DNA of 64,000 bases from [Flexibacter] sp. ATCC 35103 (GTDB taxonomy: Bacteria; Bacteroidota; Bacteroidia; Flavobacteriales; Flavobacteriaceae): positions 411,261 to 475,260 of the forward strand of contig NZ_MTQF01000005.1 of NCBI RefSeq assembly GCF_001975985.1, in the 5' to 3' direction. Below, in pieces: positions 1 through 64,000 of this stretch (position 1 is the first letter of the stretch; every line of letters begins with the position of its first letter). Under the pieces are notes generated by a model. The model made no database searches. It was not told the origin of the DNA and saw nothing but the letters and a program-made list of their open reading frames with translations. The translations under genes and the position numbers were made by a program.

Positions 1-19
1 TCGAGCCTCGTCTTTCGCT
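1..19 (+). tRNA. 3' end of a tRNA, probably tRNA-Gly (partial)
   Basis: The first bases read as a T-loop remainder (TCGAGC), the 3' half of the T-stem (CTCGT), a seven-base acceptor strand (CTTTCGC) and a T discriminator. The piece resembles the 3' end of Bacteroidota tRNA-Gly(GCC) from memory. The anticodon lies outside the window, so the amino acid is inferred. A terminator follows directly. Confidence 0.55.
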
Positions 20-23
20 CTTC

Positions 24-58
24 AAAATCCTCAAACAATTTGTTTGGGGATTTTTTTT
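24..58 (+). terminator. Rho-independent terminator after the tRNA
   Basis: A near-perfect hairpin (AAAATCCTCAAACAA paired with TTGTTTGGGGATTTT) ends in a run of T. It would stop transcription of the tRNA that enters from the left edge. Confidence 0.8.
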
Positions 59-75
59 GTCTTTATATTTTTGAA

Positions 76-132
76 CCATTAAGATATTAAAAAAAATAAG
101 TTCAATCCTTAATAAACTTAATATCTTAATGG
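76..132. repeat. 15-bp inverted repeat downstream of pepE
   Basis: CCATTAAGATATTAA (76-90) is an exact reverse complement of bases 118-132, with a 27-base AT-rich loop. It lies ten bases past the pepE stop codon. There is no T-run after the hairpin on the minus strand, so it is a weak terminator candidate or a 3'-end structure. The core CATTAAGATATT recurs at about 964-975. Confidence 0.6.
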
Positions 133-141
133 TAAGAAAAA

Positions 142-849
142 TTATTTTAGATTGCTTAAATCGCTTTCTGTTTCTAATTCTTTTGGGGCTTCGTTTTGTA
201 AAAATAAACGAGCAGATAGGCTTCCTTTTAGCGTGATTTTTTCTCCTTTTACTTCAAGCCAGCTTCCTTCTCTTAGTCCTAAAACAGGAATAGCATTAAA
301 GGCATGAAATTCCTTAATTCTGGTTTCTCGTGTTTCTCCCATATGTTTAGATTGTGTGTCAGGATCTAAATAATGAGGATTTAAATTAAAAGGAATTAAT
401 CCTAATGTCTGAAAACTTGGCGGGTAAATAATAGGCATATCGTTTGTGGTTTGCATCGATAAACCGCAAATATTGCTGCCGGCGCTGGTTCCTAAATAAG
501 GAGTTCCGTTTTTTACCGTTTCTGCAAGAACTTGCATGATATTGTGTTTGTATAATTGGGTAACCAATAAAAAAGTATTTCCTCCTCCGGTAAATATTCC
601 TTCGGCATTTTTTATGGCATTTTCTGCATTGTCAAATTCATGAATTCCCTTTACAGAAATGTTTATTGATGCAAATGCCTGTGCAACTTTCTTGGTGTAC
701 TCATCGTGCGAAATACCACTTGGTCTTGCAAACGGAATAAATAAAATACTTTTGCAGTTTTTAAAATGCGATTGTAAAGTAGGTAGTAGGTATTCTAAAT
801 AGCTGCCTTCGTGTAATGTAGATGTGCTGGCAATAATAATGCTTTTCAT
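142..849 (-). CDS. pepE: Dipeptidase E (peptidase family S51)
   Basis: This is a cytoplasmic serine peptidase that splits N-terminal aspartyl dipeptides. At 235 residues it matches the usual family length of about 230. The nucleophile elbow GTSAGSN is at 120-126 (Ser122), with His159 in NPHY and Glu194 in LREGS. The spacing equals the Ser120-His157-Glu192 triad described for the Salmonella enzyme. There is no signal peptide. The gene is transcribed away from the paralogue cluster at 1014 and stands alone. The start is the ATG at 849, since the protein begins in the typical beta strand (KSIIIAST). Confidence 0.9.
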   Translation of the reverse strand: MKSIIIASTSTLHEGSYLEYLLPTLQSHFKNCKSILFIPFARPSGISHDEYTKKVAQAFASINISVKGIHEFDNAENAIKNAEGIFTGGGNTFLLVTQLYKHNIMQVLAETVKNGTPYLGTSAGSNICGLSMQTTNDMPIIYPPSFQTLGLIPFNLNPHYLDPDTQSKHMGETRETRIKEFHAFNAIPVLGLREGSWLEVKGEKITLKGSLSARLFLQNEAPKELETESDLSNLK

Positions 850-29011: not shown

Positions 29012-31011
29012 ACGATAAAAATATATCCTACAGAATTTACCTCGTAGCAGTTTTCATCTTTTTGATGGCAATTGCTATTGTTGTTAAGTTAACCAATATT
29101 CAATGGGTTGAAGGTGATTACTATAGAAAACTGGCGAAACAACGTACGGTTAGAAATTTTGTGATTCCGGCAAACAAAGGAAATATCTACTCTGCTGACG
29201 GAAGTTTATTGGCAACATCAATCCCTAATTATGAGATTAGATTTGATGCAAAAGCGCCAAAAACAGAGACGTTTGAGAAATATGTAAAAGCATTATCAGA
29301 TTCTTTGGCAACAGTTCTGGACAGACCGGGAGGTTATTATGAAAAAGAGTTAAGGAAAGCAAGAGAGAATAAAAATCGTTATTATTTGATCGCCCGTAAT
29401 TTGAGCTATACTGAATATGTAAAAATAAAAGGTTTTCCATTATTCAATTTGGGTGCATTTAAAGGTGGAATTATAATCGAACAGGAAACGGTTAGAAAAC
29501 ATCCGATAGGAAAAATTGCCGAAAGAACAATTGGTTACGACCGTATTGATCCGGCAACAGGAGTTGAAGTAGGTAAAGGAATCGAGTGGGCTTTTAAAAA
29601 TTACCTGAACGGAAAAGACGGTAAAATTTTAAAACAAAAAATTGCAAAAGGACAATGGAAACCTATTCGCGATGTCAATGAAGTTGATCCTCAGGATGGT
29701 TTTGATGTCATTTCGACAATCGATGTTTTTATTCAGGATATTGCGCATCACGCTTTGTTGAAACAGTTAGAAGAATATGAAGCTGATCACGGTTGTGTAG
29801 TGGTGATGGAGACAGAAACGGGACATGTAAAAGCCATTTCGAATTTAGGAAGAGCAGAAGACGGATCGTATTATGAAACTACAAATTATGCTGTAGCAGA
29901 ATCTCATGAGCCGGGATCTACTTTTAAATTAGTGGATTTAATGGCTATTTTAGATGATAAAGTGGCAGATACAAGTACGGTTTACGATAGTCACAACGGA
30001 CAGGTGAAATATTATGGGCGTTCTGTTACTGATTCGCACAGAGGAGGTTACGGAAAGGTTTCATTGGCACGTGGTTTTGAGCTTTCGTCAAATACCGTAA
30101 TGGTTCAGGCGGTTTATGAAAATTATAAGAGCAATCCGTCTAAGTTTGTGAATCACATTAAGAGTTATGGATTAGATAAACCATTAGGATTACACTTTAA
30201 AGGAGAAGGAAGACCTTATATACCACAACCCGGAGGCAAACACTGGTCAGGAGTTTCACTTCCGTGGATGGCTTTTGGTTACGGAGTTTCGGTTACACCC
30301 ATGCAGACTTTGGCTTTTTATAATTCGGTTGCGAATAATGGAGTAATGGTAAAACCTCAGTTTGTTTCGGAAATTAAAGAATGGAACAAAACCATCAAGA
30401 AGTTTGATGTTGAAGTGATTAATCCAAAAGTATGTTCGCCGGAAACCATTAAAAAATTGAGAGCAGTATTGCTTAATGTGGTTAAAAAAGGAACAGGCTC
30501 AAAGTTGTATTCGAAAGATTTTTCGATGGCTGGTAAAACGGGAACGGCTCAGGTAAATTACGGAGGAAAAGAAGGAAAGTCGGCATTGTATTACGCGTCT
30601 TCTTTTGTGGGGTATTTCCCGGCAGATCATCCTAAATATTCTTGTATTGTAGTGGTTCATAAACCCAATACAGCAAAAAACAATTATTACGGAGCAGATG
30701 TTGCGGGACCGGTTTTTAAACGAATTGCCCAAAAAATATTTACAGACGCACCATCAACAAATAAAATTAAAAAACTGGATTCAAGAATTCCAAAACAAGA
30801 TGACAGTTATAATAAATATACGGCAGAGGCTAATAAAAAATCAAACCAAATTCCTGATTTAAAAGGAATGCCGGGAATGGATGCTATTGCTTTACTGGAA
30901 AATTTAGGTTTGAAAGTAAAAGTAAACGGAGTAGGAAAAGTAAAAAAACAGTCTTTACAGGCTGGGGAAAATATTAGTAAAAACACAACAATAGTATTAG
31001 AATTATCGTGA
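29002..31011 (+). CDS. ftsI: Septal penicillin-binding protein with PASTA domain (FtsI/PBP3-type)
   Basis: This transpeptidase cross-links septal peptidoglycan. It has 669 residues: a membrane anchor (about 11-31), a dimerisation domain, a transpeptidase domain with S306-T-F-K309, S362-S-N364 and K512-T-G514, and one C-terminal PASTA domain (about 605-669). The PASTA domain is usual for Bacteroidota members and absent from the E. coli protein. The last codons overlap murE by four bases. Confidence 0.93.
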   Translation: MAVDDKNISYRIYLVAVFIFLMAIAIVVKLTNIQWVEGDYYRKLAKQRTVRNFVIPANKGNIYSADGSLLATSIPNYEIRFDAKAPKTETFEKYVKALSDSLATVLDRPGGYYEKELRKARENKNRYYLIARNLSYTEYVKIKGFPLFNLGAFKGGIIIEQETVRKHPIGKIAERTIGYDRIDPATGVEVGKGIEWAFKNYLNGKDGKILKQKIAKGQWKPIRDVNEVDPQDGFDVISTIDVFIQDIAHHALLKQLEEYEADHGCVVVMETETGHVKAISNLGRAEDGSYYETTNYAVAESHEPGSTFKLVDLMAILDDKVADTSTVYDSHNGQVKYYGRSVTDSHRGGYGKVSLARGFELSSNTVMVQAVYENYKSNPSKFVNHIKSYGLDKPLGLHFKGEGRPYIPQPGGKHWSGVSLPWMAFGYGVSVTPMQTLAFYNSVANNGVMVKPQFVSEIKEWNKTIKKFDVEVINPKVCSPETIKKLRAVLLNVVKKGTGSKLYSKDFSMAGKTGTAQVNYGGKEGKSALYYASSFVGYFPADHPKYSCIVVVHKPNTAKNNYYGADVAGPVFKRIAQKIFTDAPSTNKIKKLDSRIPKQDDSYNKYTAEANKKSNQIPDLKGMPGMDAIALLENLGLKVKVNGVGKVKKQSLQAGENISKNTTIVLELS

Positions 31012-32471
31012 AAGTACTAAAAGACATATTATATAAAGTAGCTATTGAATCTGTAACAGGTTCGACGGAAATTGATATACATAAAATTGATTTTGATTCA
31101 AGAAAAATTGAAGAAAATGATGTTTTTGTAGCAATTCGCGGATCATTATCTGATGGGCATGATTATATAGAAAAAGCTATTCAGTTAGGGGCAGTTGCAA
31201 TTATTTGTGATGCATTGCCGGAGAATATCGAAAAAGGAATTACTTATATTAAAGTAAAAGATACCAATACAGCTTTGGCTTTTATGGCAGCTAATTATTT
31301 TGGAAATCCTTCTGAAAAATTAAAATTAGTTGGCGTTACGGGTACAAACGGAAAAACGACAATTGCTTCATTATTGTTTCAGTTGTTTCAAAAAGCAGGG
31401 TTTAAAGTTGGTTTACTATCAACGGTAAAAATAATGGTTGATGAAACGGAATATAAAGCAACACATACAACACCGGATTCTATCACAATCAATTATTATT
31501 TAAATGAAATGATTGAGTCTGGGGTAACGCATTGTTTTATGGAAGTGAGTTCACACGGAATTCACCAAAAACGTACAGAAGCTTTGCATTTTGAAGGTGG
31601 GGTTTTTACGAATCTGTCACACGATCATTTAGATTATCATCCAACGTTTGCAGAATACAGAGATGTAAAAAAATCATTTTTTGATTCGTTGCCAAAAACT
31701 GCTTTTGCATTATCAAACATCGATGATAAAAACGGAACTGTGATGTTGCAAAATACAGTTGCCAGAAAATTTACTTATGCCTTAAAGTCTTATGCTGACT
31801 TTAAAGCGACAATATTAGAAAGTCAGTTATCTGGATTGCTGCTTAAAGTAAATGACAATGAAGTTTGGGTAAAACTTATTGGGACTTTTAATGCTTATAA
31901 CGTTTTGGCAATTTACGGAACGGCAATAGAACTTGGAATGGATAGCCTGGAAGCGCTGCGTTTATTGTCTGATTTAGAGAGTGTTTCTGGTCGTTTTCAA
32001 TATATTATTTCGGCAGGAAATATTACTGCGATTGTAGATTATGCACATACACCGGATGCTTTAGACAATGTTTTAAAAACGATAACAGATATCCGTACCA
32101 AAAACGAACAATTGATTACAGTTGTGGGGTGCGGAGGAAACAGAGATAAAACAAAGAGACCAATTATGGCTAAAATTGCTACAGATCTTAGTGATAAAGC
32201 AATTTTAACATCTGATAATCCAAGAAATGAAGATCCTGAAGTGATTCTTGATGAAATGGAAAAAGGAGTTGAAGCTCATAATTATAAAAAGATATTGAGA
32301 ATTACAGATAGAAAACAAGCTATAAAAACAGCTTGTCAATTGGCTCAGCCAAATGATATTATTCTAATTGCCGGTAAAGGCCACGAAACATATCAGGAAA
32401 TAAATGGTGTTCGAAACCATTTTGATGATATGGAAACAGTAAGAGAAATTTTAGATCAATTAGGAAAGTAA
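31008..32471 (+). CDS. murE: UDP-MurNAc-tripeptide synthetase MurE (meso-DAP type)
   Basis: This ligase adds the third residue to UDP-MurNAc-L-Ala-D-Glu. It has 487 residues. The ATP loop is GTNGKTT (112-118), and the carbamylated-lysine region HTTPDS and a conserved SSHG are present. The DNPR motif at 403-406 indicates meso-diaminopimelate as substrate rather than lysine. A 99-base gap separates it from mraY. The start is GTG at 31008, overlapping the ftsI stop. Confidence 0.94.
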   Translation: MKVLKDILYKVAIESVTGSTEIDIHKIDFDSRKIEENDVFVAIRGSLSDGHDYIEKAIQLGAVAIICDALPENIEKGITYIKVKDTNTALAFMAANYFGNPSEKLKLVGVTGTNGKTTIASLLFQLFQKAGFKVGLLSTVKIMVDETEYKATHTTPDSITINYYLNEMIESGVTHCFMEVSSHGIHQKRTEALHFEGGVFTNLSHDHLDYHPTFAEYRDVKKSFFDSLPKTAFALSNIDDKNGTVMLQNTVARKFTYALKSYADFKATILESQLSGLLLKVNDNEVWVKLIGTFNAYNVLAIYGTAIELGMDSLEALRLLSDLESVSGRFQYIISAGNITAIVDYAHTPDALDNVLKTITDIRTKNEQLITVVGCGGNRDKTKRPIMAKIATDLSDKAILTSDNPRNEDPEVILDEMEKGVEAHNYKKILRITDRKQAIKTACQLAQPNDIILIAGKGHETYQEINGVRNHFDDMETVREILDQLGK

Positions 32472-32570
32472 AGTTTAAACGGTTAATTGGTTGTTCGTTT
32501 CATCGAATAATTATTAAATCAAAAACTAACGAATCAACATAATAACAATTAAACAAATAAACCAAGATAT

Positions 32571-33803
32571 ATGCTATACTATTTATTTGAATATTTAGAC
32601 AAAACATTAGATATACCAGGAACTGGAGTTTTTCAGTATATCACTTTCAGATCGGCTTTGGCATTGATGCTTTCATTGCTTTTGTCAACCATTTACGGAA
32701 AAAGAATTATAAACTTTTTGCGTAAACAACAAGTTGGCGAAACCGTTCGTGAGTTAGGTCTGGCTGGTCAAAATGAAAAAGCAGGTACACCAACAATGGG
32801 AGGACTGATTATCATTTTTGCAACGCTTGTGCCTGTTTTGTTATTTGCTCGTTTGCATAATATTTATATCGTATTGCTTATCGTAACTACGTTATGGATG
32901 GGAACAATTGGTTTTGTAGACGATTATATTAAAATATTCAAAAAAGACAAACAGGGACTTAAAGGTATTTTTAAAGTTATAGGACAAGTTGGTTTAGGTA
33001 TCATCGTTGGGGCTGTTCTTTATTTTAATCCTGCAGTAACAGTAAGAACCGATACAGGGAGAACAGATGTTTTTAGAACCACAACAAATACAACTGTAGT
33101 TTTACCTGCACCAGTTGAGGAAAAATCTACGGCAACAACAATTCCGTTTGTAAAAAATAATGAATTTGATTATGCTGAGTTATTAGCGTGGACAGGTGAA
33201 GGATACGAAAAATGGGCTTGGTTGATTTTTATTCCGGTTGTTATTTTTATCATTACTGCGGTTTCAAATGGTGCTAACTTGACAGATGGAATTGATGGTC
33301 TCGCTGCAGGAACATCGGCAGTATCCGTGCTCGCGCTCGGGATATTTACGTTTGTTTCCGGAAATATCATATTCTCCAATTATCTAAATATTATGTACAT
33401 CCCCAGTTCCGGAGAGATGACTGTTTTTATATCGGCATTTGTAGGGGCATTAATTGGATTTCTTTGGTATAACTCTTATCCCGCTTCGGTATTTATGGGA
33501 GATACAGGAAGTTTAACTATTGGTGGAATCATTGCGGTTTTGGCAATCGCAGTCCGTAAAGAATTATTGATTCCGCTATTGTGTGGAATCTTCCTGGTAG
33601 AAAATTTCTCAGTGGTTTTGCAAGTGAGTTATTTTAAATTCACGAAGAAACGTTTTGGTGAAGGCCGAAGGATTTTTCTGATGTCGCCATTACACCATCA
33701 TTATCAAAAGAAAGGATATCATGAGAGTAAAATTGTAACCAGATTCTGGATCGTTGCGATCATGTTAGCCATATTATCAATCGTTACTTTAAAACTTAGA
33801 TAG
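32571..33803 (+). CDS. mraY: Phospho-MurNAc-pentapeptide translocase MraY (with loop insertion)
   Basis: A membrane enzyme that makes lipid I from UDP-MurNAc-pentapeptide and undecaprenyl phosphate. It has about ten helices. The catalytic Asp pair is D117-D118 (FVDDY); [12 protein letters not shown] and the HHH loop ([11 protein letters not shown]) are also present. At 410 residues it is about 50 longer than the E. coli enzyme. The excess is an insertion at about residues 155-215 (Thr/Val-rich, then charged) between two helices, probably periplasmic. Its stop is directly followed by murD. Confidence 0.94.
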
Positions 33804-35135
33804 ATGAGATTGGTAGTTTTAGGAGGAGGAGAAAGCGGAGTAGGAACCGCTATTCTGGGGAAGAAAAAAGGATATGAAGTTTTTGTATCTGATTTTGGAA
33901 AAATAAAAGAAAGCTATAAAGAAGTTCTTATAATTAATGGAATTGCCTGGGAAGAAGAAAAACATACGGAAGACCTGATTTTGAATGCTGATGTAGTAAT
34001 GAAAAGTCCGGGAATTCCAGAGAAATCTCCCATAGTACAAAAGCTTATTGCTGCAGGAATTAAAGTGATTTCTGAAATTGAATTTGCTAAACCTTTTACT
34101 GAAGCATTAACAATTGGAATTACGGGGAGCAATGGTAAGACAACGACAACGATGCTTACGCATCATTTGTTGAAATCAGCAGGATTAAATGTTGGTTTAG
34201 GAGGAAACATCGGAAAAAGTTTTGCCTGGCAGGTTGCCGAAAATAAATACGATGCCTATGTTCTTGAATTAAGTAGTTTTCAGCTCGACGGAATTATAGA
34301 TTACAGGCCGGATATTGCCATTATTACGAATATTAGTCCGGATCATTTAGACCGATATGAGTATAAATATCAAAAGTATATTGACTCGAAGTTTCGAATA
34401 ACAATGAATCAAACGGAGAGCGATTATCTTATTTACGATGCAGATGATGAAGCGATTTCAGAATGGTTAAAAAATAACACAACAAAAGCAAAATTAATTC
34501 CTTTTTCATTGTCACAAACATTCGATGAAGGGGCTTCTATAAATAACAACAAAATGGAAATAAAGATCAACCAAGAAGAGTTTACAATGGAAACAGAATA
34601 CATTGCGTTAGAAGGAAAACATAACATGAAAAACGCAATGGCAGCAAGCTCTGTAGCAAAATTGATGCAAATTAGAAATGCAACAATACGCGAAAGTTTA
34701 TCGAATTTTCAAGGTGTAGAACACCGTTTAGAAAAAGTATTAAAAATTCAGAATGTTCAATATATCAACGATTCTAAAGCAACAAATGTAAACGCAACTT
34801 TCTTTGCTTTAGACAGCATGAATGTTCCAACGGTTTGGATTGTTGGTGGTGTTGATAAAGGAAATGATTACAACGAATTGATGTCGTTGGTTCGTGAAAA
34901 AGTAAAAGCTATTATTTGTCTTGGAGTTGATAATCATAAAATTATCAATGCTTTTGGAAATGTAGTTGACATTATGGTAGAAGTAAATAATATGAACGAT
35001 GCTGTAAAAACGGCACAACGTTTAACAGAGAAAGGCGATGCTGTTTTATTGTCTCCAGCTTGTGCAAGTTTCGATTTATTCGAAAACTACGAAGACAGAG
35101 GAAAACAATTTAAGCAAGCAGTTCACAACTTGTAA
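33804..35135 (+). CDS. murD: UDP-MurNAc-L-alanine:D-glutamate ligase MurD
   Basis: A cytoplasmic Mur ligase (443 residues) that adds D-glutamate. It has a Rossmann-like N-terminal UDP-binding domain (VVLGGGESGVG), the ATP loop GSNGKTT (108-114), NISPDHLDRY, and a C-terminal domain with YINDSKATN and WIVGGVDKG. It starts immediately after mraY and is separated from ftsW by a short repeated sequence. Confidence 0.94.
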   Translation: MRLVVLGGGESGVGTAILGKKKGYEVFVSDFGKIKESYKEVLIINGIAWEEEKHTEDLILNADVVMKSPGIPEKSPIVQKLIAAGIKVISEIEFAKPFTEALTIGITGSNGKTTTTMLTHHLLKSAGLNVGLGGNIGKSFAWQVAENKYDAYVLELSSFQLDGIIDYRPDIAIITNISPDHLDRYEYKYQKYIDSKFRITMNQTESDYLIYDADDEAISEWLKNNTTKAKLIPFSLSQTFDEGASINNNKMEIKINQEEFTMETEYIALEGKHNMKNAMAASSVAKLMQIRNATIRESLSNFQGVEHRLEKVLKIQNVQYINDSKATNVNATFFALDSMNVPTVWIVGGVDKGNDYNELMSLVREKVKAIICLGVDNHKIINAFGNVVDIMVEVNNMNDAVKTAQRLTEKGDAVLLSPACASFDLFENYEDRGKQFKQAVHNL

Positions 35136-35141
35136 AAAAAA

Positions 35142-35205
35142 GTTTCAAGTTTCAGGTTTCATGTTATGTGAAAACCTGAAACCTGAAACAAGAAAAACCT
35201 GAAAC
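35142..35205. repeat. Inverted and direct repeats between murD and ftsW
   Basis: GTTTCAAGTTTCAGGTTT (35142-35159) pairs with 35172-35189 at 17 of 18 positions around a 12-base loop. The unit AAACCTGAAAC then recurs at 35195-35205. There is no T-run, so it is not a simple terminator. It could be an mRNA processing or stability element within the dcw transcript. Confidence 0.7.
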
Positions 35206-35212
35206 TAAAAAC

Positions 35213-36523
35213 ATGAAGGAATTAGTAAACAAATTAAAAGGAGACAGGGTAATATGGTCATTCGTGGCTTTATTGGCGTTGTTTTCGTTTATGCCTGTTT
35301 TTAGTGCGAGTAGTAATTTGGCTTATATAGGTCACGGAACCGGAAATACACTGGGATATTTGGTAAAACACCTGGCTCACGTTTGTATTGGTTTCCTGAT
35401 TATTTATTGGGTGCACAAAGTACCATATCATTATTTCAGAGCGATTTCAAAAATAGCTTTGCCTGTTGTGTGGTTTTTATTGCTTTATACATTATTAAAA
35501 GGAACTGTAATTGCGGGAGCAAATGCAAGCCGTTGGATTCAGGTGCCGTTTATTGGTATTACGTTTCAAACTTCGACTTTGGCTGCCAGTATATTATTTA
35601 TATATGTTGCACGTTATTTGTCAAAAACAAGAGAAGAAAATGAACCTTTTCAAACCTCGTTAATACAGCTTTGGCTGCCTGTTTTTATAACATTGGTGCT
35701 TATTTTACCAGCTAACTTTTCGACTACGGCGTTGATCTTTTCTATGGTAATTATGTTAACGTTTATTGGCAGATATCCGCTAAAATATATTGGTTTTATA
35801 ATTGGTTCAGGAATCGGAATGCTGTTGTTTTTCCTTTTAGTGGCAAAAGCTTTTCCGGATTCAAGATTCTTTAGCAGGGTATCTACATGGGAAAGCCGTA
35901 TTTCGAACTTTACCACAGACAAGCCTGACGAAGATGATTATCAAATCGAAAAAGCAAAAATTGCAATTGCGTCAGGAAAATTAGGAGGATTAGGACCTGG
36001 AAAAAGTGTTCAGAAAAACTTTTTGCCACAATCATCTTCAGATTTTATTTATGCCATTATTGTCGAAGAATATGGTTTAGTTGGAGGAGTTTCTATATTG
36101 ATTTTATATCTGTTGCTGTTGTTTAGATTTGTAATTGCATCACATAAAGCCAATACTTTATTTGGAAAGTTAGTCGTCGTTGGGCTTGGTTTTCCTATGA
36201 TATTTCAGGCAATGATTAATATGGCGGTTGCAGTAGAATTATTACCGGTAACGGGGCAAACACTTCCGTTGATAAGTAGTGGAGGTAGTTCGATCTGGAT
36301 GACGTGTTTCTCTCTTGGAATTATCATTAGCGTGACGAAAAAAGAAGAAGAAATTGCCGAAGAACAAGAAGAAAAAGAGAGACGAAAAGAAGCGCTTCAA
36401 CGATTAATCGATAAAGAATTAGGAGAAGAAGATTTAGTTTCTGAAGAAGTATACGAGGAAGAAGGAATGTATTCTATTGAGGATAATTCCAGAAATCCAA
36501 TGAATGCAGTTTTAAATAAATAA
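35213..36523 (+). CDS. ftsW: Septal peptidoglycan polymerase FtsW
   Basis: A SEDS-family glycosyltransferase (436 residues, about ten helices) that polymerises lipid II at the septum with FtsI. Family segments include GANASRWIQVPFIGITFQTS, the long extracellular loop with KIAIASGKLGGLGPGKSVQKNFLPQSSSDFIYAIIVEEYG, and PLISSGGSS near the end. After the last helix there is a charged cytoplasmic tail of about 65 residues rich in Glu and Lys. Confidence 0.93.
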   Translation: MKELVNKLKGDRVIWSFVALLALFSFMPVFSASSNLAYIGHGTGNTLGYLVKHLAHVCIGFLIIYWVHKVPYHYFRAISKIALPVVWFLLLYTLLKGTVIAGANASRWIQVPFIGITFQTSTLAASILFIYVARYLSKTREENEPFQTSLIQLWLPVFITLVLILPANFSTTALIFSMVIMLTFIGRYPLKYIGFIIGSGIGMLLFFLLVAKAFPDSRFFSRVSTWESRISNFTTDKPDEDDYQIEKAKIAIASGKLGGLGPGKSVQKNFLPQSSSDFIYAIIVEEYGLVGGVSILILYLLLLFRFVIASHKANTLFGKLVVVGLGFPMIFQAMINMAVAVELLPVTGQTLPLISSGGSSIWMTCFSLGIIISVTKKEEEIAEEQEEKERRKEALQRLIDKELGEEDLVSEEVYEEEGMYSIEDNSRNPMNAVLNK

Positions 36524-36562
36524 GATTAAAGAATAATTTTTACAGCGAGTAACTTTTAAAAT

Positions 36563-37648
36563 ATGACAAATTATAAATTCATATTAAGTGGTGGCGGAAC
36601 AGGAGGACATATCTATCCTGCAATTGCTATTGCTAATGAATTAAAAACCCAATTTCCTGATGCCGAGTTTCTTTTTGTAGGAGCACAGGACAAAATGGAA
36701 ATGCAGAAAGTGCCTCAGGCAGGTTATGAGATAAAAGGACTCTGGATTGCCGGTTTACAAAGAAAATTGACGTTGCAAAATTTGATGTTTCCGTTAAAAT
36801 TGGCAACAAGTTTGCTGGAGTCAAGACGAATCATCAGGCAGTTCAAACCAAATGTGGTAATAGGAACGGGAGGTTTTGCCAGCGGACCTTTGTTACAAGC
36901 CGCCGGTGGAGCAGGAATTCCGACCGTGATTCAGGAGCAAAATTCGTTTCCGGGAATTACCAATAAATTATTGAGCAAGAAAGCCAATGCAATTTGTGTG
37001 GCATATGAAAATTTAGAGCGTTTTTTTCCAAAAAATAAAATCATTCTAACCGGAAATCCTGTTCGTCAGGACTTAATAGATATTGAAAGTAAACGTGATG
37101 AAGCAATTACTTTTTATGGTTTAGATCCTAATAAAAAAACACTTTTGGTTTTAGGCGGAAGTTTAGGTGCCAGAAGAGTGAATCAGTTAATCGAGAAAGA
37201 ATTACATAATATGCTTTCACAGGATGTTCAGGTAATCTGGCAATGTGGGAAATTATATTTTGAAGATTATAAAAAACACAATCAGCAACATGTAAGAGTG
37301 GTTGATTTTATTGAAAGAATGGATTTTGTATATGCTGCGGCAGATGTGATTATTTCACGTGCAGGAGCATCATCAGTATCAGAATTATGCATTGTTGGGA
37401 AACCGGTAATTTTTATTCCGTCACCAAATGTAGCCGAAGATCATCAAACAAAAAATGCTCAGGCAATTGTTGATGCTAAAGGAGCAATTTTGCTGAAAGA
37501 ATCAGAATTAGACAGTCAGTTTAGTATTGTTTTTGAAGCTTTACTGAAAGATCACGGCAAGCAGAAACAGTTAAGTGATAATATCAAAAAACTGGCGATG
37601 CCAAATGCTACAAAAGTTATTGTGGATCAAATTAAAAAGTTGTTATAA
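36563..37648 (+). CDS. murG: UDP-GlcNAc:lipid I transferase MurG
   Basis: A peripheral membrane glycosyltransferase (361 residues) that adds GlcNAc to lipid I, making lipid II. The N-terminal motif [12 protein letters not shown] (9-20), [23 protein letters not shown] and [24 protein letters not shown] are diagnostic. It has the usual length. It is followed by a 153-base gap before murC that contains only a weak hairpin (37692-37710). Confidence 0.94.
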
Positions 37649-37801
37649 TATAACTTTTTTTGAAAATTATAGAACAAAATTAAAAATTTAGAACGCTATT
37701 TTTAAGCGTTTTGAGTTATTAAAGTGATAAAATTACAAAGGCTTAAGTACTAGTTTTTTATGAAATAAAACAACTTGTAAATAGCTCAAAATTAAAGAGA
37801 A

Positions 37802-39151
37802 ATGAATTTAAATCAGATACAGAACGTTTATTTTATTGGCATTGGAGGCATCGGAATGAGTGCTCTGGCCCGCTATTTTAAAAATATCGGGAAACAGGTT
37901 TCAGGTTACGATAAAACGCCATCAATGTTAACGGCTGAATTGATCGAAAGCGGTATTGATATTCATTTTGAAGATAATATTAATTTAATTCCTTCTGATT
38001 ATTATTCTGAAAACACATTGGTAATTATAACTCCTGCAGTGCCTAAAACACATTCAGAGTGGAATTACTTTTTAGAAAGAGAATATCAGGTTAAAAAACG
38101 TGCAGAAGTTTTAGGGATTATCACAAAAGACACCTTTTGTTTTGCTGTTGCTGGTACGCACGGAAAAACAACAACATCAAGTATTTTAGGACATATTCTA
38201 TTTGAAAGCGGGGCTGACGTAACTGCTTTTGTGGGTGGAATTGTAGAGAATTATAATTCGAATTTAATTGGAAGCGGAAAGACAGTAACTGTTGTGGAAG
38301 CGGATGAATTTGATCGTTCATTTTTACATTTACATCCTAATATTGCCTGTATAACTTCAATGGATGCGGATCATCTCGATATTTACGGTACAAGTGATGC
38401 AATTGAAGCTTCGTTTGTTGAATTTGCTAATAAAGTTGAAGATAAAAACAACCTGTTTATAACAAAAGAATTGCCTCTTGAAGGAGTGCAATGTGCTATA
38501 AATGAAGACGCTGTGTATAAAGCTTTCAATGTTCGTATAGAAAACGGAAGTTATGTTTTTGATGTTCAGACACCATCAGAAATTATGAAAGACCTGCATT
38601 TTGGATTGCCGGGGAAACACAATTTAATGAATGGATTAATGGCTATTGCGATGGCAAAAACTTCTGGTACGCCAACTGATTTGATTGCGAAAGCTATTGC
38701 ATCATTCAACGGAATCAGAAGACGTTTCTCATATCAGATTAAATCAGATAAATTAGTTTATATAGATGATTATGCACATCATCCAACAGAAATAAATGCG
38801 GTACATCAGGCGGTTACTGAATTGTATCCGGGGCGTAAAGTTTTGGCCATTTTTCAGCCACATTTATTTAGCAGAACCAGAGATTTTGCTGACGGATTTG
38901 CCGAAAGTTTATCTCAGTTCGATGAAGTGTTTTTAATGGATATTTATCCGGCACGCGAATTACCGATGGAAGGGATTACATCAGATTGGTTGTTGGGAAA
39001 AATGACAAATTCGAACAAAAAAATTGTTGCAAAAAATGATTTATTAGCGGAGATCAAAGCCAGTGATGCGCCAATAATTGTAACAATAGGAGCTGGTGAT
39101 ATTGGAGAAATGGTTCCGTCAATCAAAAAAATGCTAAATGAAAATATTTAA
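37802..39151 (+). CDS. murC: UDP-MurNAc:L-alanine ligase MurC
   Basis: The first Mur ligase of the pathway, adding L-alanine (449 residues). It has the N-terminal GIGGIGMSALA nucleotide-binding loop, the ATP loop GTHGKTT (118-124), EADEFDRSFL and DDYAHHPTEI. The ATG at 37802 is the only sensible start. Its last 14 bases overlap ftsQ, showing that the division genes continue in the same transcript. Confidence 0.94.
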   Translation: MNLNQIQNVYFIGIGGIGMSALARYFKNIGKQVSGYDKTPSMLTAELIESGIDIHFEDNINLIPSDYYSENTLVIITPAVPKTHSEWNYFLEREYQVKKRAEVLGIITKDTFCFAVAGTHGKTTTSSILGHILFESGADVTAFVGGIVENYNSNLIGSGKTVTVVEADEFDRSFLHLHPNIACITSMDADHLDIYGTSDAIEASFVEFANKVEDKNNLFITKELPLEGVQCAINEDAVYKAFNVRIENGSYVFDVQTPSEIMKDLHFGLPGKHNLMNGLMAIAMAKTSGTPTDLIAKAIASFNGIRRRFSYQIKSDKLVYIDDYAHHPTEINAVHQAVTELYPGRKVLAIFQPHLFSRTRDFADGFAESLSQFDEVFLMDIYPARELPMEGITSDWLLGKMTNSNKKIVAKNDLLAEIKASDAPIIVTIGAGDIGEMVPSIKKMLNENI

Positions 39152-39860
39152 TTGGACAAATATTAGATTAATTCTCATTTTAGGACTTGTTCTTTTTTTA
39201 TATTCTTTTGCCCAACATCGAAATGGTGATCGAAAATTAAAGAAATCGATGGTTGTTTTTGTAGGAGAAAATACGCTTTTTGTAAAGCCGGAAACGGTTA
39301 ATAAATTGTTGATAGAAAATAAAAGAGACGCTTCCAGTATCCGAAAAGATGAATTAGATTTGAATAAGATTGAGAAAACCCTTGATACGCAAGACATGAT
39401 TGAAAAATCAGATGTTTTTGTAAGTATTGATGGTGTTCTAAAAGCGGTAGTAAAACAGAAGACACCAATAGCGAGAGTTTATGATGGTGTTACCTCTTTT
39501 TATATTGACTATGAGGGAAATAAAATGCCTTTATCAGACAATCATACCGCTCGGGTTCCTCTTGTTTCCGGGGCAATTAATGAAAAAAATAACGAAGATT
39601 TAGCTACTTTATTTCGCACAATTTATGACGATGCGTTTTTGAAAAAAAACATCATTGCAATACAAATTATGCCTAATGGTAGCTTAAAAATGTTTAATAG
39701 AAATTATAATTACTTCATCGATTTTGGCAGAACGATGAATGTTGATAAGAAATTTAATAACTATAAAGCCTTTTTTCAAAAAGCGGTTTTAGATAGTTCG
39801 TTATATAAATATAGTAAGATTGACCTTAGGTTTACGGAACAAGTAGTTTGCACAAAATAA
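39138..39860 (+). CDS. ftsQ: Cell division protein FtsQ
   Basis: A 240-residue bitopic protein with one membrane helix (about 9-26) and a periplasmic part that begins with a POTRA-like domain (about 35-105), followed by the FtsQ beta domain. It bridges early and late division proteins. Sequence similarity is modest, but the topology and the position between murC and ftsA support the call. Six bases separate it from ftsA. Confidence 0.85.
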   Translation: MKIFNWTNIRLILILGLVLFLYSFAQHRNGDRKLKKSMVVFVGENTLFVKPETVNKLLIENKRDASSIRKDELDLNKIEKTLDTQDMIEKSDVFVSIDGVLKAVVKQKTPIARVYDGVTSFYIDYEGNKMPLSDNHTARVPLVSGAINEKNNEDLATLFRTIYDDAFLKKNIIAIQIMPNGSLKMFNRNYNYFIDFGRTMNVDKKFNNYKAFFQKAVLDSSLYKYSKIDLRFTEQVVCTK

Positions 39861-39866
39861 TAGAAA

Positions 39867-41279
39867 ATGGAAAAAGATAACATTGCAGTAGGTCTAGATA
39901 TTGGAACGACAAAGATAGTTGCCATGATCGGCAAGAAGAATGAGTATGGAAAGTTGGAAATTTTGGGTATTGGAAAATCCAAAAGTTTAGGAGTTGCGAG
40001 AGGTGTTGTAAACAACATCACGCAAACTATCCAGTCCATTCAGCAAGCAATACTTGAGGCGGAAAACAATTCAGGGTATAAAATAAAAGATGTTGTTGTG
40101 GGTATCGCAGGACAACATATCAGAAGTATTCAGCACACAGATTACATCAGCCGTAATAATCCGGAAGAAGTAATTGGCGAAAAAGATATTCAGCTTTTGA
40201 TTGACCAGGTCAATAAACTGGCCATGTTACCGGGAGAAGAAATTATTCATGTTTTACCACAGGAATTTAAAATCGATGGGCAATCTGAAATAAAAGAACC
40301 TATCGGGATGTACGGCGGAAGACTGGAATCTAGTTTTCACGTAGTCGTTGGTCAGGCATCATCGATCAGAAATGTTGGAAGATGTATTCAGAGTTCAGGA
40401 ATCGAATTATCAGGATTAACATTAGAACCATTAGCTTCGGCAGATGCAGTTTTAAGTCAGGAAGAAAAAGAAGCTGGAGTAGCTTTGATTGATATTGGTG
40501 GCGGAACAACAGATTTAGCCATTTTTAAAGATGGTATTATTCGTCATACTGCAGTGATCCCTTTTGGAGGAAATGTAATTACAGACGATATTAAAGAAGG
40601 TTGTTCGATTATCGAAAAACAAGCAGAGCTTTTAAAAATAAAATTCGGATCAGCCTGGCCGGGAGAAAATAAAGACAACGAGATTGTTTCTATTCCCGGA
40701 TTAAGAGGAAGAGAACCAAAAGAGATTTCGCTTAAAAATTTATCTAAAATTATCCATGCACGTGTGGTGGAAATCGTAGAACAGGTTTTTGCAGAAATTA
40801 AAGCATATGGGCACGAAGATCCGCGCAAAAAATTAATCGCAGGAATTGTGCTTACCGGTGGTGGTGCTCAACTAAAACATATTAAACAATTAGTAGAGTA
40901 TATTACAGGTATGGATACCAGAATTGGATATCCAAATGAGCATTTAGCTGGAAATTCAAGCGAAGAAATTTCTAGTCCGTTATTTGCAACAGCAGTTGGT
41001 TTAGTAATGAACAGTATCGAAAACAGTACCCAAAGTGCTGTTAGAATGGAGATTGTAAATGAGCAGCCAAAAGTAGTGTACAGAAATGTTCCTCAGCAGG
41101 TACAACAACCTGTACAGCAACGATACGAAGTAGAAGAAAACTACGTTGAAAGAGTAGAAACTATTGAAGAAGTCAGGAATACTGCAACTAAGGAAGAATC
41201 TACTGAAACTAAAATTAGAAGATCATTTTTTGATAGATATGTCGATAAAATCAAAGATTTTTTAGACAACGCAGAATAG
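39867..41279 (+). CDS. ftsA: Cell division protein FtsA
   Basis: An actin-like ATPase (470 residues) that anchors the Z ring to the membrane. It has VGLDIGTTKIVAMIG (about 8-22), the IDIGGGTTDLAIF phosphate loop and GIVLTGGGAQLKHI. The C-terminus after about 400 is a Gln- and Glu-rich linker ending in an amphipathic helix (SFFDRYVDKIKDFLDNAE), the probable membrane-targeting sequence. ftsZ follows after 83 bases. Confidence 0.94.
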   Translation: MEKDNIAVGLDIGTTKIVAMIGKKNEYGKLEILGIGKSKSLGVARGVVNNITQTIQSIQQAILEAENNSGYKIKDVVVGIAGQHIRSIQHTDYISRNNPEEVIGEKDIQLLIDQVNKLAMLPGEEIIHVLPQEFKIDGQSEIKEPIGMYGGRLESSFHVVVGQASSIRNVGRCIQSSGIELSGLTLEPLASADAVLSQEEKEAGVALIDIGGGTTDLAIFKDGIIRHTAVIPFGGNVITDDIKEGCSIIEKQAELLKIKFGSAWPGENKDNEIVSIPGLRGREPKEISLKNLSKIIHARVVEIVEQVFAEIKAYGHEDPRKKLIAGIVLTGGGAQLKHIKQLVEYITGMDTRIGYPNEHLAGNSSEEISSPLFATAVGLVMNSIENSTQSAVRMEIVNEQPKVVYRNVPQQVQQPVQQRYEVEENYVERVETIEEVRNTATKEESTETKIRRSFFDRYVDKIKDFLDNAE

Positions 41280-41362
41280 AGTAATAAGAGAAAAGGAATT
41301 ACTTTTTGCCCCAAGTCAAGAAGTAAAAAATGTATTAAATAAGAATTTCAAAAACCAAAAAG

Positions 41363-43420
41363 ATGATGAGCAACTCAGAATTTGGAAGTATTTCATTTGA
41401 TTTACCAAAAAACCAATCAAATGTTATCAAAGTAATAGGTGTAGGTGGAGGTGGTAGTAACGCTATCAACCATATGTTTAAACAAGGTATTAAAGGCGTT
41501 GATTTCATCGTTTGTAATACTGATTCACAAGCACTACAGAATAGTTCAGTGCCGAACAAAATTCAGTTAGGTATGAACTTAACAGAGGGTCTTGGAGCAG
41601 GAGCAAATCCTGATGTAGGGCAACAATCTGCTATAGAAAGTATCGCTGATATCGAAAAAATGTTAGACCGTGGTACTAAGATGGTATTTATTACCGCTGG
41701 TATGGGTGGTGGTACAGGTACTGGTGCAGCTCCGGTAATTGCACAATTGGCCAAAGAAAGAGAAATCTTAACTGTTGGTATCGTTACTATTCCTTTTCAG
41801 TTTGAAGGAAAAGTGCGTCAGGAGCAAGCGCTTTTAGGAATCGAGAAATTGCGTAAGCAAGTTGATTCGCTAATTGTAATCAATAATAATAAGTTAAGAG
41901 AAGTATACGGAAATCTTGGTTTTAAAGCAGGATTCTCGAAAGCTGATGAAGTTTTGGCAACAGCCTCCAGAGGTATTGCTGAAGTAATTACGCATCACTA
42001 TACTCAAAATATCGATTTACGTGATGCTAAAACTGTTTTATCAAACAGCGGAACAGCTATCATGGGATCTTCTGTTGCTGAGGGTGAGAACAGAGCGAAA
42101 GATGCTATTGTTTCGGCATTGGATTCTCCGTTGTTAAACGACAACAAAATTACAGGAGCCAAAAACGTATTGTTGCTTATCGTTTCTGGATCAAACGAAA
42201 TTACTTTGGATGAGATTGGAGAAATCAATGATCATATCCAGGTAGAAGCAGGTCATAATGCTAATATTATCATGGGAGTTGGTGAAGACGAAACTCTTGG
42301 TGATGCTATTGCTGTAACTATTATTGCAACTGGTTTTGATGTTGAACAACAAAACGAAATTGTAAATACTGAACCTAAAAAAATCATTCATACGCTGGAA
42401 GATGAGCAAAGAAGTGTTCATAATCTATCGAATAAAACAGTTACTTCTTTTGATGTAAATGCTGAAACACCTACTTCAAAATCAGAAGAGAAAATTGTTT
42501 TTGAATTAATGGATGATGATGAAGATGCGATAACTCCGTTTACAGCTACGCATATTGCTCCAGTTGAAGTTGCTCCAATTGAAGCTGCACCAGTTGCCGT
42601 TACTCCATCAACAAATGTTGTAAGTAATCCGTCAATGAATAAGGAAGAATTAGTAGTTATGTCTGAGTTTATTAAAAACCTTGATGTAACTTTCGAAATT
42701 GTTTCTCCTATTACAGATATTGATTTTACTATTACGGCTCCGGAAATGCAAACTTTCCAGGAAATAAAACCAATTCAGCAAGTTCAACAAAGAACTTTTG
42801 AAAGAGAAGAACAAACGACTTTCTCATTTGATTTACCTCTTTTCAGATCAGAACCGGAAGTAAAGAAAGAGCCGGTTGCTGAACAGGAAAATAAAATTTT
42901 GTTCGAATTATCGAATGAAACCCGTAATATTAAGGTAAATGATCCAGTACAATTTGTACCGGTTACAGAAATTTCAGATAAAGGAATTATCAAATATTCT
43001 CTTGAAGAGTATATGGAGGTTGAGAACGAATTAGTAACATCAAAACCTGTGGATAAGGTGGTAGAAGAAGTAATTCCTGCGGAATTAAATATCACCATGA
43101 AGCAAAAAGTTGATTTTGCAAGTGAAGCTCATTTTACAACAACTTCAGAGGTTTCTCCGATGGAATTAACGATCGAGGAAACTTTACGCTTAAGAGCTGA
43201 AGAAAGAAGAAAGAAACTAAAAGAATTTAATTATAAATTCCATAATAATGTTTCCAGAATTGATGAACTTGAAAAAGAGCCTGCTTATAAAAGATTAGGT
43301 ATCGACTTATCAAACTCACAATCAAATAATAACAATTCGAGAATATCAGTTGGAACTGATAGTAATAACGATTTGCAGTTGCGTTCAAACAATTCATTTT
43401 TGCACGACAACGTAGATTAA
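41363..43420 (+). CDS. ftsZ: Cell division protein FtsZ with long C-terminal linker
   Basis: The tubulin-like GTPase that forms the Z ring. It has 685 residues, far more than the roughly 380 of E. coli. The GTPase core ends near 325, with GVGGGGSNA and the signature GMGGGTGTGAAP at 113-124. A Glu/Pro/Thr-rich linker of about 290 residues follows. A conserved-looking terminal peptide, EPAYKRLGIDL (639-649), probably binds FtsA. Unusually, 36 more Asn/Ser-rich residues come after that peptide. A second ATG one codon later is equivalent. It is the last gene of the cluster. Confidence 0.94.
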   Translation: MMSNSEFGSISFDLPKNQSNVIKVIGVGGGGSNAINHMFKQGIKGVDFIVCNTDSQALQNSSVPNKIQLGMNLTEGLGAGANPDVGQQSAIESIADIEKMLDRGTKMVFITAGMGGGTGTGAAPVIAQLAKEREILTVGIVTIPFQFEGKVRQEQALLGIEKLRKQVDSLIVINNNKLREVYGNLGFKAGFSKADEVLATASRGIAEVITHHYTQNIDLRDAKTVLSNSGTAIMGSSVAEGENRAKDAIVSALDSPLLNDNKITGAKNVLLLIVSGSNEITLDEIGEINDHIQVEAGHNANIIMGVGEDETLGDAIAVTIIATGFDVEQQNEIVNTEPKKIIHTLEDEQRSVHNLSNKTVTSFDVNAETPTSKSEEKIVFELMDDDEDAITPFTATHIAPVEVAPIEAAPVAVTPSTNVVSNPSMNKEELVVMSEFIKNLDVTFEIVSPITDIDFTITAPEMQTFQEIKPIQQVQQRTFEREEQTTFSFDLPLFRSEPEVKKEPVAEQENKILFELSNETRNIKVNDPVQFVPVTEISDKGIIKYSLEEYMEVENELVTSKPVDKVVEEVIPAELNITMKQKVDFASEAHFTTTSEVSPMELTIEETLRLRAEERRKKLKEFNYKFHNNVSRIDELEKEPAYKRLGIDLSNSQSNNNNSRISVGTDSNNDLQLRSNNSFLHDNVD

Positions 43421-56201: not shown

Positions 56202-56915
56202 TTATAATAACTTTTGGAGTTCCAATTCGGCAATAATTTGTTTCTTCATAATTGTATTAACATAGTCTTTAGCTTCTGCATATGAGATATTGTACTTACG
56301 TGAAATATTTTGTAAATGAGAAGGAAATCCAACCAGTAATCTATCATAATAAAGATCCAATTCACTTTCGTTGGGCATTTCGAATTGCAGTCGTATTTGA
56401 AATCTTCTCAATAAAGCTGTGTCAATCGTATGATAATGATTTGTAGCACAAATAAGCAGGCTGTTTGTTGGCAAATAATCAATCAACTGAATAATGGTAT
56501 TAACCAAGCGTCTCATTTCGCCCACATCTTTATCCTCACTGTCACGGCTTTTTCCAATTTGGTCAAATTCATCCAGAAATAATACGGCATTTTCCCTAAT
56601 AGCTTTGTCGAATATGGCTTTTACATTTTTTGAGGTTTCACCAATTCGGGCATTAATTAAAGTGCTTAAGTTTATGATTACGATATTTTTATTCAATGCA
56701 GTTGCAATAGCTTTTGCCGTTGTTGTTTTACCACATCCTGAATGACCGTGAAGTAATATTTTATGATCTACTTTAAGATTGTATTTTTTTAATTCTTCAA
56801 GATATTGATGCTCTTTTATAGTCTGCGTCAAAGCTGCCTTATTTTCTTCACTAAAAAGTAAATCATCTAAAACTATTTTTTCAGTATCGTTTACGGTAAG
56901 TTCGTATAGATTCAT
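56202..56915 (-). CDS. Stand-alone AAA ATPase
   Basis: A 237-residue cytoplasmic ATPase with a single AAA module. Walker A is GHSGCGKTT (57-65), Walker B is VLFLDEFD (111-118), sensor 1 is Asn159 in CATN, and arginine fingers are at 170-171 (LLRRF). There is only a 50-residue N-terminal part and no protease, helicase or membrane segment. It resembles the core of SpoVK- or FtsH-type AAA proteins. The partner and substrate are unknown. It is a single gene, convergent with the repeat-protein gene. Confidence 0.8.
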   Translation of the reverse strand: MNLYELTVNDTEKIVLDDLLFSEENKAALTQTIKEHQYLEELKKYNLKVDHKILLHGHSGCGKTTTAKAIATALNKNIVIINLSTLINARIGETSKNVKAIFDKAIRENAVLFLDEFDQIGKSRDSEDKDVGEMRRLVNTIIQLIDYLPTNSLLICATNHYHTIDTALLRRFQIRLQFEMPNESELDLYYDRLLVGFPSHLQNISRKYNISYAEAKDYVNTIMKKQIIAELELQKLL

Positions 56916-62138: not shown

Positions 62139-62609
62139 TTATAGATTTTTCTTGGAAAATAAATTGTCAACAACCCATGCAGGACCAATCATCAGAAATT
62201 GGAGATCTTTTAAGAAAGAAGGCTTTTTGCCTTCGATATTATGTCCGTAGAATTGCCCGATCCAGGCAATAACAAAAACACCAATAGAAAATATCCATAA
62301 AGGCACAAATTGACTTATATAATAATTTACGACCAGGCAAATCGCAGAAAAAACAGCAATTTTAATCGCCATGACTACAGATAAACGAATATAAAAAACA
62401 AGTACAAAAAGAAGGACCACAACAGCCCAATTTTCGATAACTGGTGTATTTAGTTTTAACGTATTTGCAATAATACCGCTTGGGATACTCATTAATAAAC
62501 CAACTATCGAAAAGTAAATCGCGGGAACACACACATAATGTATGGCTTTGTTTTTTGGGTTTTGATGACTTACTGCGTATTCTTCAAACCATTGTTCTAA
62601 TGTTCTCAT
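62139..62609 (-). CDS. DUF962 / Mpo1-like membrane protein
   Basis: A 156-residue membrane protein of the DUF962 family, which includes yeast Mpo1, an Fe(II) dioxygenase acting on 2-hydroxy fatty acids. It has WFEEYAVSHQNPKNKAIHYVCVP at the start (His in SHQNP and IHYV) and the closing IGQFYGHNIEGKKPSFLKDLQFLMIGPAW. Four or five helices are predicted. The ATG at 62609 is chosen. The open frame continues to 62738 but runs through the upstream gene's terminator. The lipid substrate is inferred from the family only. Confidence 0.85.
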   Translation of the reverse strand: MRTLEQWFEEYAVSHQNPKNKAIHYVCVPAIYFSIVGLLMSIPSGIIANTLKLNTPVIENWAVVVLLFVLVFYIRLSVVMAIKIAVFSAICLVVNYYISQFVPLWIFSIGVFVIAWIGQFYGHNIEGKKPSFLKDLQFLMIGPAWVVDNLFSKKNL

Positions 62610-62776: not shown

Positions 62777-63478
62777 TCAGAATAAATTATGAGTATCTGT
62801 TACCAGAATAAGCTTCTGAAAACGGCTTCGGTCATAATCTATCCTGCTTGCTTTAACGGCGACCGGAAAATGAATTTCAGCGTTTGAAGTCATATGCAAT
62901 TTGTTTTGATTGCTAATTGCAAAATCTAGTTTTCCACTCGCGATTTCGTTTAAACTTGCCACTAAATTATCATCTAATGTAAAATCAGTTTCGATGTCTA
63001 CGATTAGATTTTTAGCAAATACAGTTCCTGTTATAACCAGAATATAATTGCGGTTTGCATTTTTTAATAACGACGGATTTGGGTGCAGAAAATCTGCAGA
63101 GAAAAAGTAATCTTCGATATTGCCAATAGTATATTCCTTGGTAACCGAATTGTCATAACTGATGGTTACGGTTTTTCCTGATTTAATTTTTGTAGAGATT
63201 TCAAACGCCCCAAGTCCAAGTGTTTTCAGGATCTCCTGCAAAAGCGTAATACCAATATTAAAACCATAATCATCTTTTTGATTAGAATTTACGCTTAAAG
63301 CCGGATTCTCAATTTCCGTTAGCACCACATTGCTCTTAAAGGCGTGTTCGATACTGGCATAGTAAAGCTGCGCTTCGTCAAACGGTTTTTTAAGCCATAG
63401 TTGTAATGGTTTATGATTTCTAACAGGGCCTTCGATAATATCATAACCTTGTTCGCTTAAAAATTTTGTAAGTTTCAT
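62777..63478 (-). CDS. Gasdermin-like protein (putative bGSDM)
   Basis: A 233-residue protein without signal peptide or catalytic motif. Its pattern recalls bacterial gasdermins, the pore-forming proteins of anti-phage cell death. The order is LSEQGYDIIEGPVRNHKPLQL at the start, GFNIGITLLQEILKTLGLG near 85-105, SGKTVTISYDNSV, then NYILVITGTVFAKNLIVDI and a closing VKASRIDYDRSRF with a 14-residue tail. No cysteine is present, so the lipidated N-terminal Cys of studied bGSDMs is missing. No protease gene is visible beside it. The ATG at 63478 is preferred to a TTG at 63547. This assignment rests on pattern memory and needs a search. Confidence 0.45.
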   Translation of the reverse strand: MKLTKFLSEQGYDIIEGPVRNHKPLQLWLKKPFDEAQLYYASIEHAFKSNVVLTEIENPALSVNSNQKDDYGFNIGITLLQEILKTLGLGAFEISTKIKSGKTVTISYDNSVTKEYTIGNIEDYFFSADFLHPNPSLLKNANRNYILVITGTVFAKNLIVDIETDFTLDDNLVASLNEIASGKLDFAISNQNKLHMTSNAEIHFPVAVKASRIDYDRSRFQKLILVTDTHNLF

Positions 63479-63874: not shown

Positions 63875-64000
63875 ATGGACTTTAAAAAATTTAAAAACCC
63901 GCAGCCTATTGTACTCCATATCACCTTAGAAAACGATGAAAAAGAGGCAAAAATACCGGTAAGAAATTATAAGCGTTATGATTATTACAATACTAAAAAC
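63875..64000 (+). CDS. Start of an unidentified gene (cut by the window end)
   Basis: An open frame from an ATG gives at least 42 residues, beginning MDFKKFKNPQPIVLHITLEN and continuing with EKEAKIPVRNYKRYDYYNTKN. It is hydrophilic, with no signal peptide. The family cannot be told from this piece. It is divergent from the gasdermin-like gene, so its identity matters: a protease here would support the gasdermin call. Confidence 0.5.
   Translation, partial: MDFKKFKNPQPIVLHITLENDEKEAKIPVRNYKRYDYYNTKN

Follow-up and report, generated by a model that had tools for sequence, protein, structure and literature searches.

Bacterial gasdermins are kept inactive by a short C-terminal peptide, and this tail is freed by a linked protease, according to the parts of the reviews cited here; in the Bradyrhizobium gasdermin a phenylalanine of the tail contacts the palmitate (PMC9612521, PMC10989679, PMC12547243). 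Palmitoylation of an N-terminal cysteine is described for most bacterial gasdermins, as a feature of the majority that is not universal, in the cited part of the source (PMC9612521). Activation without cleavage, through a disulphide or through the pairing of two alleles, is reported in the cited portions of the literature for the Trichoplax gasdermin and for Neurospora RCD-1 (PMC12547243, PMC13305819).

Gasdermins are proteins that kill cells by perforating membranes. The gene described here belongs to a branch of gasdermins without the lipid-anchoring cysteine or a neighbouring protease, and represents a variant of a known family. The likeness of its product to the solved proteins of Vitiosangium (7n51), Runella (7n52) and Bradyrhizobium (7n50) is that of a fold extending over the whole length at an identity of at most about 20%, with the large C-terminal domain absent in both. 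Proteins of this type mostly have, in the literature as far as cited, a palmitoylated N-terminal cysteine and a linked protease, whereas neither feature is shared in the clade studied here. No publication on this clade was found in a literature search, the two founding papers on bacterial gasdermins being outside the reach of that search. The conservation of a branch without both features suggests that neither acylation nor a linked protease is essential for keeping the gene under selection, and surveys of gasdermin-protease pairs would miss this cysteine-poor clade. It offers a one-gene system for studying how a gasdermin that has no lipid anchor is restrained and then set free.

Gene, Product and Family Assignment

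The features referred to below are located as follows in the window, that is, the whole stretch of 64,000 nucleotides that was analysed.

62777..63478 (-), gene of the bacterial gasdermin, whose 233 aa include no cysteine (open reading frame, profiles, model, Foldseek and VIA-align)
62780..62830 (-), C-terminal tail RSRFQKLILVTDTHNLF, codons 217-233, following the last core strand, a putative latch (placed by the model and the alignment with 7n51)
62142..62603 (-), downstream flanking gene c2, Mpo1-like/DUF962 (Pfam), which together with the DUF3754 gene marks the occupied or empty site
63875..64000 (+), beginning of a divergent gene of 75 codons that runs to 64102, outside the window, and whose product has a C-terminal hydrophobic stretch

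The gasdermin reading frame starts with ATG at position 63478 on the minus strand, the strand being absent from the first-pass annotation, and comprises 233 codons, with the stop at 62777-62779. The segments quoted in the first-pass annotation, GYDIIEGPVRNHKPLQL, GFNIGITLLQEILKTLGLG, SGKTVTISYDN, NYILVITGTVFAKNL and VKASRIDYD, are all read in the translated frame in the order given there, and the last of them is followed by a tail of 17 residues. No signal peptide was recognised by eye in the 233-aa protein, and none of its 233 residues is cysteine, as that annotation had remarked. Each of the 23 over-cut-off matches in the genus (see below) retains this Met start, has 233 residues and aligns over 1-233, one of them having been trimmed by 7 residues to the common start. 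The gene has a single match in the host genome (99.87% complete), and the nearest named relative is Flavobacterium aquidurense RC62, with a protein identity of 99%.

Membership in the bacterial gasdermin family, which had been proposed from the letters of the DNA, is secure on the basis of profiles, PDB searches, Foldseek and VIA-align, all of which agree. The protein scored 124.3 bits (E 5.4e-36), well outside chance, against NCBIfam prok_gasdermin NF051890, whose curated cut-off is 100, and E 1.6e-25 against the PADLOC bGSDM profile, while a Pfam search gave no family. All 40 aligned members hit prok_gasdermin at E<=0.001. A PDB search with the single sequence returned 8sl0 and 7n51 at E 0.004-0.006, and a search with the profile of the 40-sequence alignment returned the same Vitiosangium gasdermin entries at E 2e-8 to 3e-8. 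Ubiquitin matches in the single-sequence search cover 35 residues and vanish with the alignment profile, which itself shows two further rows attributable to chance (E 0.5-0.6).

The AlphaFold2 model obtained from the 40-sequence alignment had a pLDDT of 86.9 and a pTM of 0.84, and was weakest at its end (pLDDT 76 for residues 221-230 and 66 for 231-233). Comparison of the predicted structure by Foldseek, the check that had been suggested for the assignment, placed solved bacterial gasdermins in the top six rows, in the order 7n51 (E 2e-14), 7n52 and 7n50, followed by oligomer or pore forms, the Trichoplax gasdermin and mammalian gasdermins; the predicted fold is that of a gasdermin over the full length. 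VIA-align superimposed 227 residues on 7n51 (model 1..233 on 6..263) with Z 19.1 and an rmsd of 3.0, and gave Z 16.4 for 7n52, 14.6 for 7n50, 12.7 for the oligomer 8sl0 and 12.4 for the pore model 9a84. From the Z values of 7n51 as against those of 8sl0 and 9a84, the model is closer to the full-length than to the pore form, a preference that may simply be AlphaFold's own. Cholesterol-dependent cytolysins reached a VIA-align Z of about 6-7 and were not adopted, the gasdermin rows being far higher. The Trichoplax gasdermin (8jyv) and Neurospora RCD-1 (8jyy) share the gasdermin fold at Z 10.7 and 8.0, but are eukaryotic and only 8-10% identical to the 233-aa protein.

A Cysteine-Poor Clade

Among 398 genomes of the genus Flavobacterium, 26 matched the gasdermin profile, 23 of them over the cut-off, and one of the three weak matches (L028) is a histidine kinase. 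No over-cut-off match was found in 14 control genomes. All 23 over-cut-off proteins lack cysteine. A pattern-based, non-exhaustive scan of genome contigs yielded 39 loci, from Flavobacterium, Psychroflexus, Aquimarina and other Flavobacteriaceae and, by the labels of the records, from six further families (Hymenobacteraceae, Flammeovirgaceae, Mangrovivirgaceae, Prolixibacteraceae, Marinifilaceae and Chitinophagaceae). A further two distinct members, L105 and L106, came from sampling at the level of phylum, family and class; the protein of L104 is identical to that of L075.

The absence of cysteine that had been noted as an oddity of one protein thus extends to the whole clade: 39 of the 41 distinct relatives are cysteine-free, and an N-terminal cysteine occurs in none. 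The two others, L088 and L105, have a single cysteine apiece, near positions 128 and 154, so that the 9588 residues of the 41 relatives contain 2 cysteines in all, the local background being 0.75%. Since 31 of 178 unrelated reading frames of similar length also lack cysteine, the lack is weak evidence when taken alone, and what counts is its persistence throughout the clade.

A tree of 46 rows, rooted at the midpoint for display purposes, separates 43 members from three cysteine-bearing gasdermins along a long branch with support 100/99. Two of these three, L102 and L103, come from the same bacterial family as the present genome. They fall in the same NCBIfam family over its cut-off and can be aligned through the last strand '..ID..TGK', but differ from the 233-aa protein in their identity (16% and 12%), an N-terminal cysteine in an 'RIC' context, an adjacent Peptidase_C14 caspase and other tail lengths.

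Flanking Genes, Selection and Mobility

In this genome the gasdermin gene has as neighbours DUF3754, the 75-codon frame, the Mpo1-like gene, an LCM methyltransferase and a DUF998-like gene (below cut-off). The divergent gene at 63875, given in the first-pass annotation as cut off, is real and does run past the end of the window, but its full length is just 75 codons (63875-64102, corresponding to L002:436-663). It had no Pfam match, and was rejected as a partner because it is present in 4 of 43 genomes searched, all of them carriers, which makes it at most a local accessory.

In 15 of the 23 genus carriers the gasdermin lies between the DUF3754 and Mpo1-like genes, sometimes with one extra gene between; in one it is just upstream of the DUF3754 gene, and in seven it is elsewhere. 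The DUF3754 gene was found in 38 of 150 genomes, six of them carriers, and 20 of the 32 non-carriers were compared, with the closest DUF3754 copies taken first, not strictly in order. In these the DUF3754 and Mpo1-like genes are 66-2684 nt apart (66-202 nt in 10 of 20), and none of the 20 has a gasdermin between them. Presence or absence at the site therefore concerns the gasdermin as a single gene. Close packing with another gene is rare: when neighbours of at least 95 aa are counted, 1 of 40 loci has a same-strand gene within 50 nt on the upstream side, and 2 of 41 have one on the downstream side.

Pairwise dN/dS in 25 close pairs had a median of 0.057, as compared with 0.020-0.065 for the DUF3754 gene (12 pairs) and 0.038-0.095 for the Mpo1-like gene (three comparable pairs). 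Purifying selection acts on the gasdermin gene much as on its neighbours, and its dN/dS is not raised as an arms race might predict. No gasdermin match was found in plasmid (72,556) and phage (50,697) records, nor in a pattern-based scan among those viral contigs to which its patterns applied. The patchy occurrence is consistent with transfer and loss between chromosomes.

Strong purifying selection at the level of the flanking genes, the stable chromosomal site in 15 of 23 genus carriers and the lack of matches in plasmid and phage records and in the pattern-scanned viral contigs would also be expected of a domesticated, non-lytic protein whose fold now serves the membrane constitutively, or a housekeeping purpose, and no longer cell death. 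We regard this as improbable, since occurrence in 23 of 398 genomes and scatter over several families are more in keeping with a gene that is dispensable and at times transferred.

A PADLOC search with 10 proteins from the vicinity gave an IetA-like ATPase at about 6 kb, a dGTPase at about 12 kb and a small HTH protein whose matches were weak, and the location of the gasdermin is no clear defence island. The IetA-matching AAA ATPase (8e-58) is at 56202-56915 (-) of the window. The dGTPase-family protein (5e-93), possibly a defence gene, is at L002:11708-12958 (-), about 12 kb beyond the gasdermin.

Proteases Near the Gasdermins and Elsewhere in the Genomes

The genes beyond position 64000, which the first-pass annotation had advised reading for a protease, were analysed, and Pfam on the neighbours revealed no protease beside the gasdermin in this genome. 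Throughout the clade, a pattern scan of the loci and Pfam on neighbours gave no recurrent protease type beside the cysteine-poor gasdermins. The missing protease of the first-pass annotation is therefore a property of the clade, with one possible exception. This is L091 of Aquimarina aggregata, the sole member seen with a confirmed caspase nearby, in which a C14 caspase, four genes upstream, is part of an operon-like row that also encodes a histidine kinase and a response regulator. Pfam on 36 neighbour proteins from 21 loci identified three peptidases, C14 and M49 at L091 and M14 at L106. The motif scan used a few patterns, skipped reading frames under 120 aa, is less sensitive than profiles and covered some loci that end early at contig ends; apart from its hits at L091 and at the cysteine-bearing L102 and L103, it showed HExxH four or more genes away at L057, L060, L064 and L105. 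Caspase-like patterns at L076 and L090 and ClpP-like patterns at L054, L055 and L091 were taken as chance. Among the cysteine-bearing gasdermins, L102 and L103 have a Peptidase_C14 protein directly upstream, and no protease was found among the few neighbours of L164 inspected.

The row at L091:3747-8669 consists of the C14 caspase, a 257-aa protein, the histidine kinase, a LuxR-type regulator and the cysteine-less gasdermin; the 257-aa protein has a sub-cut-off match to a MACPF beta-prism. A second family, c13, has a conserved Cys and His and appears papain-like by eye, with no Pfam match for the two members tried. In Flammeovirga (L079:9089-9655) its gene lies directly downstream of that of the gasdermin, while in five loci of Flavobacterium (L058, L061, L062, L064 and L065) it is found upstream of the DUF3754 gene.

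These cases could be taken to mean that the protein is an ordinary protease-linked gasdermin whose protease, of an unrecognised peptidase family, was missed among the neighbours: motif and Pfam scans are blind to unknown peptidase families, the Aquimarina caspase stands in an operon-like row, and c13 accompanies the gasdermin both in Flammeovirga and in Flavobacterium. We consider this very improbable. The c13 protein occurs in just 6 loci and in Flavobacterium begins with a signal-like sequence (by eye), the 3 peptidases among the 36 scanned neighbours belong to three different families, and the flanking genes stand without a gasdermin in all 20 non-carriers.

Two families were also examined as unlinked partners in 43 genomes. 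Peptidase_C14 (PF00656) is present in 6 of 23 carriers and 2 of 20 non-carriers and absent from this genome, and CHAT is present in 15 of 23 carriers, this genome included, as against 17 of 20 non-carriers, which shows no link. Neither accounts for the distribution of the gasdermin.

C-Terminal Tail and Proposed Mode of Action

The tail aligns by VIA-align with the end of 7n51, its placement being the least certain part of the model. It shows no insertion or deletion across 40 aligned sequences, with D228 conserved in 39 and F233 in all 40; a terminal Phe is found in 41 of 41 relatives, as compared with 26 of 435 background reading frames. The entropy of the tail was 1.48 and that of the core 1.27, with 60 of 217 same-length windows equally or more variable, so that the constraint on the tail is similar to that on the rest of the protein, at a fixed length. 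Pooled dN/dS was 0.114 for the tail and 0.083 for the core. In the cysteine-bearing L102, L103 and L164 the tails differ in length. We propose that the tail is an inhibitory latch of a predicted pore-forming core.

A palmitoyl anchor is impossible here because the N-terminal cysteine is absent. Taken together, the missing lipid, the absence of a linked protease among the neighbours and the fixed tail length with its Phe make a latch formed by the tail and an unlinked trigger, acting through a protease in trans or without cleavage, the simplest reading; the trigger is placed elsewhere because there is no recurrent neighbour protease, 20 of 20 non-carriers have the flanking genes without the gasdermin and a close upstream neighbour was seen at 1 of 40 loci. 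We therefore put forward, tentatively and at a little short of an even chance, a stand-alone cytosolic pore-former that is latched by its own C-terminal tail, pore activity and autoinhibition both being predicted. Until triggered, the protein would stay cytosolic in the autoinhibited conformation of gasdermins, with the tail holding the core, and the invariant Phe233 may fill the hydrophobic pocket that is occupied by palmitate in acylated bacterial gasdermins. The trigger would free the tail, most likely by cleavage with a protease encoded elsewhere in the genome, and the freed core would oligomerise into a large membrane pore by which the cell is killed or permeabilised. Against this proposal stand the lack of a candidate protease among C14 and CHAT, a tail no more conserved than the rest, the low confidence of the model at its end, a location in no clear defence island and a dN/dS similar to that of the neighbours.

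The same observations on the tail, namely its fixed length and invariant last residue, together with the single-gene presence or absence and the lack of a shared linked protease, would also fit activation without cleavage, in which a ligand, a membrane change, a partner or a modification displaces the tail and the full-length protein forms the pore. By analogy, the eukaryotic precedents of the Trichoplax gasdermin and Neurospora RCD-1, as presented in the cited parts of the sources (PMC12547243, PMC13305819), and the fold similarity to 8jyv (Z 10.7) lend it some weight. Disulphide release, one of the ancient eukaryotic routes in those sources, is impossible in a protein without cysteines, and the bacterial gasdermins in the cited portions of the reviews are protease-activated, so that we hold activation without cleavage to be unlikely, if worth keeping in mind. 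Its extension to the clade across Bacteroidota, according to which both lipidation and proteolytic control were dropped, displacement of the tail frees the full-length protein and Phe replaces palmitate, is somewhat more doubtful still. If true, the protein would be a one-gene death effector, set off directly by membrane or phage damage.

Other Gasdermin-Like Proteins and Genes

Ten matches to the gasdermin profile were below the cut-off (20.7-34.1 bits). Five of them have a signal-like start, four with a lipobox-like cysteine (by eye): L165:7627-8445 (+), L051:7965-8762 (-), L107:7824-8573 (+), L108:7915-8649 (-) and L109:7800-8717 (+). L165 is flanked by two caspase-domain proteins (PF00656, 1e-32 and 2.5e-9), both with signal-like starts, and L107 and L051 have neighbours bearing HExxH. 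A profile comparison of this group with the cysteine-poor clade gave 89% probability over 119 columns. These proteins are possibly exported lipoprotein gasdermins in Bacteroidota. The weak match L166:7811-8440 (33.3 bits) is a protein of 209 aa without cysteine; the product of a gene two positions away has sub-cut-off matches of the peptidoglycan-binding and M15 types.

Elsewhere in the window, positions 29002-43420 (+) carry what we take, by eye, to be a division and cell-wall row with ftsI, murE, mraY, murD, ftsW, murG, murC, ftsQ, ftsA and ftsZ.
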